This document shows positions 11,277 through 63,257 of a stretch of DNA of 64,000 nucleotides, piece after piece (position 1 is the stretch's first letter; each line of letters opens with the position of its first letter). The notes beneath the pieces are model-generated. The model had not been told where the DNA came from. It ran no database searches and saw nothing but the letters and a program-made list of their open reading frames with translations. This DNA comes from Bacteroidota bacterium (lineage in GTDB: Bacteria; Bacteroidota; Bacteroidia; Chitinophagales; LD1), in assembly GCA_947475165.1 (NCBI GenBank), contig CANJLD010000009.1, forward strand, positions 62,001 through 126,000. Direction: 5' to 3'. Position numbers and translations under genes: made by a program.

Positions 11277-11507
11277 GTAAAAACAGCGTTTGAAGTAACA
11301 ACCAAGGCGGTAAATCTGGTTTTCAAGGCGGTAAAAGGGAAAAACAAGCCATGGGAAGGCACGAACAAGCCGTGGGAAGACATTTTCAAGCCATGGGAAG
11401 TAGTTTTCAAGCCGTTCGAAGTAGTTTTCAAGGCGTTTGAAGAGTCTATCAAGGCGGTTGAAGACTCAATCAAGGCGGTTGAAGGCATTTTCAAGGGGTG
11501 TAAAATG
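11277..11507. repeat. 21-bp tandem array, eleven degenerate units (array 1)
   Basis: Eleven units with a constant 21-bp period and drifting sequence. The clearest are ttcaaggcgtttgaagagtc, atcaaggcggttgaagactc and ttcaagccatgggaagtagt (first 20 bases each). Several units carry a TTCAA-N5-TTGAA dyad (for example at 11427-11441). Both strands stay open: plus-strand heptads look like VFKAFEE, SIKAVED, IFKPWEV, and minus-strand heptads like STALIES, SHGLKMS. No spacers and no cas genes, so it is not CRISPR. Whether it is translated is unknown; I call the DNA repeat, not a gene. Confidence 0.85.
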
Positions 11508-11591
11508 GTGCTTTTGCCATGTTTTGCCTGTTTTTGACGGTTTTTACTGATTTTGGAGGAGTTTATCAGTTTTGAGTCGCCATACTTAATA

Positions 11592-60861: not shown

Positions 60862-62379
60862 ATGGCTTACATTAAAGAATTAGCAAAGTTCGAAGGACAG
60901 GAAATAGAATTGAAAGGTTGGAATGCGCAGAAGCGCGACAGCAAAACCATTGTGTTTATGACCATGCGCGATGGCACCGGTTTCGTGCAGTGCATTATTG
61001 ATTTGAATTCTGTAGGAGAAAATTCTTTTGAAGCAGCTAAGCGTTTGCCGCAGGAAAGTTCACTTTCTGTAAAAGGGAAAGTGGTGAAAGATGAACGTCA
61101 GATTGGCGGGTATGAAATTCATGTTACCTCGTTAGAAGTTATTGCAACAGCAGAAGCGTATCCGATTACACCTAAAGAACACGGTGTAGATTTTTTGATG
61201 GACAACCGTCACTTATGGTTGCGCTCAAAAAATCAGTGGGCAATTATGCGCGTGCGCAACGAAATTATTTTCGCCATTCATACATTTTTTCAGCAACGCG
61301 GTTTTGTGCAAATGGATGCACCTATCTTCACCGGTAACGCGTGCGAAGGAACGTCTACTCTTTTCGAAACAGATTTTTATGGCGAACCTGCTTACCTCTC
61401 ACAAAGTGGACAACTTTACGGTGAGGCCATGGCAATGGCGCAAGGGTTGATTTACACTTTCGGTCCAACCTTCCGTGCAGAGAAATCGAAAACGCGCAGG
61501 CACCTTTCGGAGTTTTGGATGATAGAACCCGAAATGGCTTTCCATGATTTGAAAATGGATATGGATGTGATTGAAGATTTTATCCGCTATGTAGTAACTA
61601 GGGTGTTGGATAAATCTAAAGCTGAACTTCAGATTCTTGAACGCGACACAACTTATCTTGAAAAAGTTCGTGAGCCGTTTATCCGCATGAAATATCAAGA
61701 TGCAGTGAGTGTAATTAAAGGCGAAAAAGAAATTGGCGGAAGAACTTCGCTGCAAATGCTTGAAGGAGAAGAAAAGGAATTGCAAAGTTCGAAAGCAAGT
61801 TTGCTAACTGAAATTCGGGAACGTGAATCAAAAATCGCTTCCGGTGAACTGAAGAAAGGTGAAATCAATTTCAATCAAAACAAAATTGACAAGTTGAAGA
61901 ATGAAGCAAAAGCTTTGGATGAAAGACTAAGTAACATTCCTACCTGGCTTAACAGCGCAAAGAACTTTAACCGCGGTGATGATTTTGGCGGAAGCGATGA
62001 AACGGTTCTTACAAAAATGTTCGGTCAACCGGTAATGGTTTATAACTGGCCGCAAGAGGTGAAAGCGTTTTACATGAAAGAAGATGAAACCGACAAAGGC
62101 TACGCCAAAGGCGTTGACTTACTTGCACCGGAAGGTTATGGCGAAGTAGTGGGTGGTGGTGAGCGCGAAACAGATATTGAAAGATTGAAAAGCAAAATTA
62201 TCGAGCATGAATTACCAATGGAGGCATTCAGTTGGTATCTCGACCTTCGCAAATTCGGCAATGTGCCTCATGCGGGTTTCGGTTTGGGTCTGGAAAGATT
62301 AGTGGCGTGGATTTGCGGATTGCAACACATTCGCGAAACCATTCCTTTCCCGAGAAGTTACGGCAGGTTGCTGCCGTAA
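60862..62379 (+). CDS. asnS: Asparagine--tRNA ligase
   Basis: A 505-residue class IIb synthetase. N-terminal OB-fold (IELKGWNAQKRDSKTIVFMTMRDGTGFVQ), catalytic domain with VQMDAPIFTGNACEGTSTLFETDF, YLSQSGQLYGEAMAMAQGLIYTFGPTFRAEKSKT and the motif 3 GFGLGLERLVAWICGLQHIRETIPFPR. A coiled-coil insertion of about 90 residues near residue 290-380 (LQSSKASLLTEIRERESKI) is larger than in enteric enzymes but is usual in Bacteroidota. Length agrees. Confidence 0.95.
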   Translation: MAYIKELAKFEGQEIELKGWNAQKRDSKTIVFMTMRDGTGFVQCIIDLNSVGENSFEAAKRLPQESSLSVKGKVVKDERQIGGYEIHVTSLEVIATAEAYPITPKEHGVDFLMDNRHLWLRSKNQWAIMRVRNEIIFAIHTFFQQRGFVQMDAPIFTGNACEGTSTLFETDFYGEPAYLSQSGQLYGEAMAMAQGLIYTFGPTFRAEKSKTRRHLSEFWMIEPEMAFHDLKMDMDVIEDFIRYVVTRVLDKSKAELQILERDTTYLEKVREPFIRMKYQDAVSVIKGEKEIGGRTSLQMLEGEEKELQSSKASLLTEIRERESKIASGELKKGEINFNQNKIDKLKNEAKALDERLSNIPTWLNSAKNFNRGDDFGGSDETVLTKMFGQPVMVYNWPQEVKAFYMKEDETDKGYAKGVDLLAPEGYGEVVGGGERETDIERLKSKIIEHELPMEAFSWYLDLRKFGNVPHAGFGLGLERLVAWICGLQHIRETIPFPRSYGRLLP

Positions 62380-62584
62380 CATTACCTTCTAAAAAAGTTT
62401 TTTGTTTTTGAAATACTTTTACATTTACAATACACTAATAAGAAAATCATTTACCCCAATGAATTTTTCTTCTTCATCTTCCTCTCATTTAACCACTGAT
62501 TTTTCAGCGCATCTTTCTGTATTAAAAGCAGGGGGGGGGGGGTACGTGCGCGCGTAGTATAACATCAAGCTCACAATTACCCAA
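62380..62584. other. Gene-free gap with a G12 homopolymer inside a short ORF
   Basis: An ATG at 62459 opens a frame (MNFSSSSSSHLTTDFSAHLS) that meets a run of 12 G at 62531-62542 and stops at 62555-62557. With 11 or 14 G instead, the frame would continue through the 21-bp array to 62870, giving about 136 residues. Length change in the tract would thus switch the product. No known domain is encoded. Confidence 0.5.
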
Positions 62585-62815
62585 TACTTGCTCTTCAAAC
62601 TATTTTTCTTGCTTGCCTTTTAATTATACCTGCCCGCTGAGCCATCCGGAACGCCCGAAATATGGGTTGGCTTGCTCGCCCTCTATGCCGGAACGCTCTC
62701 CGGTTCAGTTTTTTTGCTCTCCGGCTGACCAAACCTGCTCTCCGGCTCAATATTCTTGCTCGAAGAATGAGTTTTCGAGCAAAAAAAATGAAAATACGAG
62801 CAGCAATTCACTTGT
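62585..62815. repeat. 21-bp tandem array, eleven degenerate units (array 2)
   Basis: Eleven consecutive 21-bp units anchored on a TGCTC-like word, for example tgctctccggctgaccaaac and tgctctccggctcaatattc (20 bases each). The phase never breaks over 231 bp although the sequence drifts. One frame gives heptads such as FFCSPAD, QTCSPAQ, YSCSKNE. Period, unit number and total length equal those of array 1 (11277-11507), but the sequence is unrelated. No CRISPR features. Confidence 0.85.
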
Positions 62816-62859
62816 TTCTATTCAAAACCATTCATTTTTTAACCAAAACCCATATTACT

Positions 62860-63257
62860 ATGGCAAATAATCAATTCAGGGTGGTAATACCCAAAAACGC
62901 TGACGAGTTCATTACTTTATGTGATGACATTATTCAAAAAGAAGATTCGCTGGCGCCTTGGGCACTTTAAAGCCAGGCGAACTTCAAAAATTAAAAGATT
63001 TGCGAAACACTGCTTTTAAGGCAAATAAGGAAGCAAAAGACCTTGAAAAGCTGGCAGAAGAAAAAACTAAAACGCGCGATTTGAATTTAGGAAAAGCTGA
63101 CGGGCAGGGAGTAGCTACTCCCGACACGGCTATGTTTTTTGTAACTAAACTGCGCGATATAGTATTGGCAGAAAATAAAACAAATCCTAAAGTTTTAGGC
63201 GAATGGGGCTTTGTGGTGGACAATAGTCCGAAAGCTAAGAAGAAACCAAAGGCATAG
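62860..63257 (+). pseudogene. Small unknown gene interrupted by a one-base frameshift
   Basis: From ATG 62860 the frame reads MANNQFRVVIPKNADEFITL to TAA at 62968-62970. A second frame, continuous from 62958 (LGTLKPGELQKLKDLR...) to 63257, carries on the same protein-like style: a charged helical middle (KANKEAKDLEKLAEEKTK), then FFVTKLRDIVLAENKTNPKVLGEW and a Lys-rich end. Restoring one base near 62956-62958 (between GCGCC and TTGG) joins them into about 131 residues. I do not recognise the family. It may be a sequence error or a recent mutation. It lies directly after array 2 and the G12 tract. Confidence 0.65.

Follow-up and report, generated by a model that had tools for sequence, protein, structure and literature searches.

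Arrays of 21-bp units with constant period and variable sequence, and a protein family linked to them, in uncultured Bacteroidota

Introduction

Bacterial tandem repeats that keep one size (20-21 nt) while their sequence varies, and that are generally non-coding, were described by Subirana and Messeguer (PMC8161180). In the available text of that paper, the repeat size is noted to correspond to two helical turns, the function is given as unknown, a polymerising protein is suggested as one possibility, and the repeats are suggested to be transcribed. The same text names no protein partner for them and contains no word beginning with "bacteroid". Two further systems show related features. The BrickBuilt minisatellite MITE of Porphyromonas gingivalis is built of 23-nt units of one shared sequence, has leader and tail ends and is present in 19 copies in one strain (PMC4596501, in its available part). 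In Borg elements, virtually every tandem array has its own unit sequence, and the arrays are both intergenic and genic (PMC9879509, in its available part).

Here, we describe an array of 21-bp units, array 2, in a window of 64,000 nucleotides (the whole stretch of DNA analysed) from a Bacteroidota genome of 3.88 Mb in 45 contigs (hereafter the home genome). Array 2 belongs with the constant-size, variable-sequence repeats, as a variant found in uncultured freshwater Bacteroidota. Because such arrays were described in PMC8161180, the kind of array is already known. The link to a protein family appears to be new, and no protein link to constant-size repeats was found in print among openly licensed PMC papers. 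With the repeats in the available text of PMC8161180, the present arrays share the constant 20-21-nt step, the presence of many arrays per genome, unrelated sequences and a mainly non-coding placement; they differ in that their units are more degenerate, no motif is shared at the profile level and a protein family is linked to them. Similar to BrickBuilt, itself from Bacteroidales (available part of PMC4596501), they consist of short tandem units, are intergenic and occur in several copies per genome, with the difference that the unit is 21 bp long and varies between loci, so that one unit sequence recurring at many loci was not found here. Like Borg repeats, they change unit sequence from array to array and are both intergenic and genic; Borg units are (nearly) perfect and of many lengths, according to the available part of PMC9879509, whereas those described here are degenerate and one length prevails.

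Array 2 and its surroundings

The earlier note on the window had placed eleven units of exactly 21 bp, 231 bp in all, at 62585-62815. The array and its period of exactly 21 bp hold, the start was moved 4 bp downstream, to 62589, and nine units fit, the count of eleven units and 231 bp being reached only if a pair of units with a reversed core is included. The claim that a small gene follows was confirmed, with a start codon at 62860. The features are as follows.

60862-62379, plus strand: upstream neighbour of array 2, an open reading frame (ORF) with matches in 16 of 18 genomes of the genus, its own included; we take it to be an asparaginyl-tRNA synthetase-like gene (asnS), a name given from the sequence and not from a family scan.
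62589-62777, no strand assigned: core of array 2, made of nine units of 21 bp that share one phase and have a consensus close to TGCTCTCCGGCT (leave-one-out scores; lag-21 z of 7.3).
62778-62819, no strand assigned: two more in-phase units at the end of array 2, with the core reversed (GAGCA) and of uncertain membership.
62860-62970, plus strand: 5′ piece of a family-1 gene (start codon at 62860, ORF, tblastn of family 1).
62958-63257, plus strand: 3′ piece of the family-1 gene, in another frame, which ends LGEWGFVVDNSP... (ORF list, same-genome paralogues and family alignments).
11278-11508, no strand assigned: array 1, eleven 21-bp units of the TTTTCAAGGCGGTTGAAGACT type, the outermost two weak (lag-21 z of 13.6; unit scores).

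The z of array 2 was obtained over 147 bp. In 30 simulated copies of the window (locally fitted first-order Markov), the lag-21 z never exceeded 4.34, and, over lags 10 to 60, 4 of the 1530 combinations of replicate and lag had z ≥ 5. The leave-one-out score was above zero in 8 of the 9 core units, the unit at 62652 scoring −1.4 (99% of random 21-mers from the window score no higher than −0.3). The two end units scored −12.7 and −13.5 against the core and carry GAGCA where the remaining units have TGCTC. Tandem Repeats Finder, which requires better-matched copies, called array 2 only at 62695-62761; its rows for array 1 cover 11335-11496. A run of 12 G at 62531-62542, followed by an alternating GTACGTGCGCGCGTA stretch, lies shortly 5′ of array 2.

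That the two arrays of the window are unrelated in sequence, as had been claimed, was borne out. The earlier note also had array 1 following two small genes; no ORF of 80 aa or longer was found to begin in the 500 bp flanking array 1 on each side.

Arrays with a period of 21 bp in the home genome

A total of 852,283 bp of the home genome (22%, in stretches that include the window) was scanned and every lag from 10 to 60 was scored. The scan revealed an excess at lag 21, where 32 arrays reach z ≥ 5, 23 of them also z ≥ 7, and not a single array at z ≥ 5 at lags 20 and 22; the 37 arrays at lag 42 are a harmonic of 21. Hence, one repeat size dominates, as for the repeats in the available text of PMC8161180. 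Lags 18, 27, 36, 45 and 54, all multiples of 9, were frequent too, with 9 to 14 arrays each. The genome thus has more than the two arrays of the window, and other periods do not reach the same frequency, which supports the earlier suggestion of a process or a constraint rather than chance.

Most of these arrays are intergenic. Outside long ORFs lie 26 of the 32, with GC contents of 0.20 to 0.60, in agreement with the generally non-coding placement in the available text of PMC8161180. Among these 26, however, the array C1:237095 is covered by a 178-aa ORF and several others are overlapped by shorter ones. Of the remaining six, five are within ORFs of 217 to 440 aa and the sixth runs across the end of an ORF of 977 aa. 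Scaling up from the 22% scanned would give about 118 lag-21 arrays outside long ORFs in the whole home genome, and array 2 is probably one of about a hundred intergenic ones.

The main rival to a functional explanation is a neutral by-product: replication slippage or template switching with a step of about 21 nt would generate and remodel functionless arrays, which persist between genes because genes are intolerant of them. We regard this as rather doubtful. A purely mechanical origin does not readily account for a step of invariably 21 bp, lags 20 and 22 being empty, and, as an insert of 21 nt preserves the reading frame, such arrays would be expected more often within genes.

Sequence and structure of the arrays

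For the comparison of units, 52 arrays from the home genome and its relatives were used, six arrays in or across long ORFs being left out. Their length ranges from 147 to 396 bp (median 260) and their GC content from 0.14 to 0.62, and adjoining units have a median identity of 0.60. Units of different arrays are mostly unrelated: the mean likeness of unit profiles was 0.356 versus 0.355 after permutation (1326 pairs, several genomes). The arrays therefore differ in sequence from each other as do those in the available text of PMC8161180, where a short word is shared within a species; here the comparison was made at the profile level, and no likeness was found. Likeness above the permuted level was seen for C19:28789 with L013 (z of 6.2) and for L015 with L024 (z of 8.8), and in both pairs each array precedes related family-1 genes in different genomes. 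It was also seen for other pairs, such as C15:24142 with L086 (z of 6.4), where no related family-1 genes explain it. A nearly free unit sequence and a wide range of GC content are what neutral slippage or template switching would give. The phase of the units is kept: banded alignment revealed 59 gap openings in the 52 arrays at 38% unit mismatch, versus 265 when one indel was simulated for every 20 substitutions, a scarcity of phase shifts that argues against the neutral origin, although the comparison is biased toward a phased scaffold because the arrays were selected by their lag-21 score.

Because 21 bp correspond to 7 codons, the arrays could encode heptad-repeat peptides. The period is a multiple of three and 25 of the 52 arrays, including both arrays of the window, are open in one frame or more, a number that a period divisible by three itself favours. 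In 27 of the 52 arrays, however, all six frames contain a stop (at least two in each for 13 of the 52), and the variable columns of the array L025, as judged by eye, ignore codon positions. Heptad coding was consequently rejected as a general rule, not array by array, and it is the least probable of the explanations considered.

It was also considered that the arrays could be transcribed as a leader or a small RNA and act via tandem or long hairpins, and transcription of such repeats is indeed suggested in the available text of PMC8161180. Relative to column-permuted versions, folding reached z ≤ −2 in 19 of the 52 arrays on one strand and in 18 on the other, array 2 scoring −3.6 and −3.3 on the two strands, and in some arrays long stems span several units. 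Such self-complementary stems are likewise expected from template switching, in line with a neutral origin. Against a role as RNA, 33 of the 52 arrays fold no better than permuted on the first strand, the array C19:55353 folds worse (z of +3.0 and +2.0), the two strands score alike, as DNA dyads would, and an Rfam scan of 62300-63000 gave no match above threshold, the single match being far under it. With 19 and 18 of 52 folding, RNA hairpins were rejected as the general form of the arrays, and an RNA element appears improbable.

Inverted symmetry is common, but not universal, among the arrays. Units show dyad symmetry at p < 0.05 in 21 of 49 arrays and in 18 of the 43 of these that lie outside long ORFs. 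Dyad-symmetric units located upstream of family-1 genes would suit operators, each array holding sequence-specific sites for the regulator of the adjoining gene. This is difficult to reconcile with the average likeness of units across loci, which does not exceed that of permuted units, and with the loci L126 and L127, whose proteins are 92% identical and whose units are only partly alike. Hence we consider operator arrays quite improbable.

Pyrimidine-purine steps showed an excess of +4.0, +6.2 and +3.0 at harmonics 2, 3 and 4, respectively, harmonic 2 corresponding to 10.5 bp. Neither WW nor AA/TT was in excess at the 10.5-bp harmonic, and bending by phased A-tracts or WW steps was rejected on this ground. 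CRISPR arrays consist of near-identical repeats with unique spacers between them. The degenerate units described here, by contrast, follow each other head-to-tail, without spacers.

Family 1

The two pieces of the gene that follows array 2 overlap at 62958-62970 in different frames, which implies either a broken gene or an assembly error; the copy of the window may hence be decaying. Proteins of family 1 have about 115 to 140 aa per domain, some members having two domains, and share an invariant glycine near the C-terminus, with LGEWGF-V in many members. In the AlphaFold prediction for the L131 protein (six sequences; pLDDT of 84, pTM of 0.54), helices span residues 10-30 and 41-96. Several members carry basic C-terminal tails, and in the genomes G010, G016 and others the protein is acidic (pI of 4.7 to 4.9).

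No relative of family 1 was found in Pfam, PHROGs or the PDB. Foldseek matched neither model at E ≤ 0.001, and the best VIA-align Z of 5.8, which has little meaning for helical models, gave no convincing fold match. Searches of PDB sequences with two family alignments (A1 and A3) gave no match up to E of 0.1, nor did a Pfam search with the six-member alignment A3 up to 0.1; three individual sequences had weak Pfam matches under the curated cut-offs. In NCBIfam, one of the six A3 members matched NF052641 weakly (2.5e-4), and L129 and L131 alone had no match. PHROGs returned nothing for 14 A1 members, and PADLOC nothing for the two members scanned.

The family was found in 5 of 60 relatives (the home genome included) and in a single one of 394 genomes sampled from the phylum, which is the home genome itself. 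Of 149 genomes related to that of L131, 5 have it, the L131 genome being one of them, and it is also present in MAGs labelled Bacteroidetes, Bacteroidales and Saprospiraceae. In viral contigs, 28 stretches for family 1 and 10 for family 3 were obtained and none was confirmed, and plasmids gave no match for families 1, 3 and 4; a viral or plasmid element was accordingly rejected.

Association of family 1 with upstream arrays

The region upstream of family-1 genes was scored over 800 bp at lags 21 and 42 (z ≥ 5) for 26 loci from 12 Bacteroidota genomes, all of which have 190 bp or more of DNA before the gene. The 25 loci besides that of the window were found via protein similarity, blind to arrays; the first gene of L014, for which upstream DNA is absent, L143 and repeat copies of loci were excluded. 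An array was present upstream at 21 of the 26 loci, and 21 or 42 was the strongest of the 51 lags at 25 of the 26, numbers that derive from non-independent loci since there are only 12 genomes and several paralogues. Downstream, z ≥ 5 was reached at 1 of the 26 and the top lag was 21 or 42 at 4 of the 26. For random 800-bp windows, taken from the home genome only, the corresponding numbers were 26 and 77 out of 600. L150, with 510 bp upstream, is the sole locus without an array by both measures; L020, L022, L146 and L151 have an upstream z below 5, and the broken fragment L143 has no array. This link, upstream only and in 12 genomes, is left unexplained by a neutral origin.

The association persists at about 30% protein identity with wholly different units, which are TCGTACAGTGCCGTTGTACAG in L131, GGGTGCTTGAACGCTGTAGGA in L130 and AAATCAACTTCAACTTTGGCG in L129. 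A second lag-21 array (L198:8523 onward in G450:C237, z of 7.1 to 7.5) is located directly 3′ of the family-1 gene of L129. An array of the telomere-like unit TTTAGGGTTATCGGGGGTTGG (L016:1-105 in G039:C54), from a genome in a different family of the order, lies upstream of a two-domain family-1 gene.

The number of arrays (z ≥ 5) per kb sampled was also compared between genomes. With family 1, it was 32/852 in the home genome, 10/200 in G010, 1/200 in G001, 1/200 in G016, 4/80 in G552, 0/80 in G523 and 6/70 in G450, where the contig C237, picked for holding family 1, contributes 3 of the 6. G523 has two copies of family 1, yet no array in the 80 kb sampled elsewhere. Without a family-1 match, it was 1/88 in G005, 0/123 in G014, 0/75 in G015, 0/100 in G007, 1/100 in G009, 3/100 in G018 (two within one ORF and one of low complexity), 0/100 in G031, 1/34 in G017, 0/80 in G453 and 0/55 in G454. 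These densities are suggestive of a relation with the presence of family 1, which is confounded by lineage and sampling. G017, the closest relative, has a very regular lag-21 array at a contig end (L174:1 onward in G017:C5, z of 19.5) and no family-1 match.

Turnover after asnS

Of 17 asnS loci, 15 are readable beyond 200 bp past the gene (113 bp are available for L158, and the gene end of L163 was not located). Among the readable loci, an array at z ≥ 5 follows asnS only in the window; in G017, the closest relative (93% identity), different genes follow and an array is lacking. The genes after asnS differ widely; neither the array nor the gene after it is conserved at this position, and insertion, loss and a move are not distinguished. 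The lack of the array and the gene in the other readable genomes of the genus is in keeping with a neutral by-product. It would also be expected if array and gene formed a transposable cassette, resembling a MITE with a minisatellite, and several copies are present per genome. However, the loci have no unit sequence in common, no viral stretch was confirmed for families 1 and 3, plasmids gave nothing with three queries, and with asnS neighbours so different a rearrangement is also an option. A mobile element is therefore very improbable.

Other neighbours of the arrays

Of the 26 arrays outside long ORFs in the home genome, 10 precede genes of family 1 (4), family 2 (2), family 3 (3) or family 4 (1), at up to 456 bp, and four of these ten also precede a divergent gene on the opposite side. 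Five of the 26 lie between convergent genes, and other arrays border ordinary genes. The proposal that arrays cluster beside small genes is valid for family 1, on the upstream side, and fails for the five arrays between convergent genes.

Families 2 to 4, of which family 2 was grouped by eye, are hypothetical proteins with an N-terminal part that looks helical by eye (L029-L041, L046-L058, L061 and L063). A CarboxypepD_reg domain is found in one member of family 3 and an fn3 domain in the family-4 protein, domains of these types forming C-terminal parts. As these families were first noticed because of the arrays, their link is a lead and not independent evidence. One independent further copy of a family-3 gene, in L089, has an array that ends about 670 bp upstream. 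Genes adjacent to arrays in G010 and G552 (L087, L088, L092, L191 and L192) matched no Pfam family at E ≤ 0.01, and the G552 array L192 flanks a hypothetical gene on its 3′ side.

Phased arrays and their possible protein partner

We tentatively favour, at somewhat less than even confidence, the view that the arrays are helically phased non-coding DNA scaffolds, possibly bound by the products of neighbouring helical families. The step of 21 bp, i.e., two turns of B-DNA, would be held constant with the unit sequence left nearly free, so that an array would show the same helical face every two turns. This would let a protein bind cooperatively over some ten consecutive units, guided more by phase and local self-similarity than by any fixed motif. 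The best candidate for such a binder would be a protein encoded by the helical families next to the arrays, family 1 having a short predicted helix, a long one and a conserved LGEWGF-V-like end, and the complex might act on a local promoter or on nucleoid organisation. Binding is suggested by the position, the period and the phase retention of the arrays. Also in favour are the unit likeness between arrays that precede related genes of different genomes, the pyrimidine-purine excess at the 10.5-bp harmonic and the basic C-terminal tails of several family-1 proteins. Counting against such phased scaffolds, the family-1 protein is acidic in G010, G016 and others, five of the 26 family-1 loci have an upstream z below 5 (L150 among them having no array), most arrays do not precede family 1 and five of 26 lie between convergent genes. 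Moreover, G523 has two family-1 copies but no array in its sampled 80 kb, 25 of the 52 arrays have an open frame, WW and AA/TT are not in excess at 10.5 bp, and pyrimidine-purine steps have a stronger excess at harmonic 3 than at harmonic 2.

In ParR/parC plasmid centromeres, phased short repeats lie upstream of the gene of a small DNA-binding protein, and the sequence diverges with the architecture kept. In this type II system, the small protein, of the ribbon-helix-helix fold, binds the repeats, and the gene of an actin-like NTPase adjoins the array. The arrays described here similarly combine phased repeats with a small-protein gene (family 1) behind them, in a layout kept across divergence. 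They differ in that family 1 occurs in assemblies of chromosome size, with several copies, and its model is helical rather than ribbon-helix-helix. No gene of a filament NTPase was recognised beside array 2, the one array whose neighbours were inspected, by eye, for such a gene.

A further step, which we consider unlikely, slightly more so than a neutral origin, is that the helical families (family 1, perhaps also 2 to 4) are dedicated partners of period-locked, sequence-free arrays, on which they would polymerise in a chromatin-like or centromere-like manner, recognising the two-turn periodicity and the self-similarity of an array instead of a motif, in a system spread through uncultured Bacteroidota. 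Should it be true, the published constant-size repeats would gain the protein partner that they lack. If phase is really read free of sequence, DNA would be marked in a way unlike motif-based recognition. Constant-size, variable-sequence repeats are an open puzzle, and family 1, because of the arrays upstream of most of its loci, gives a concrete and testable protein candidate.
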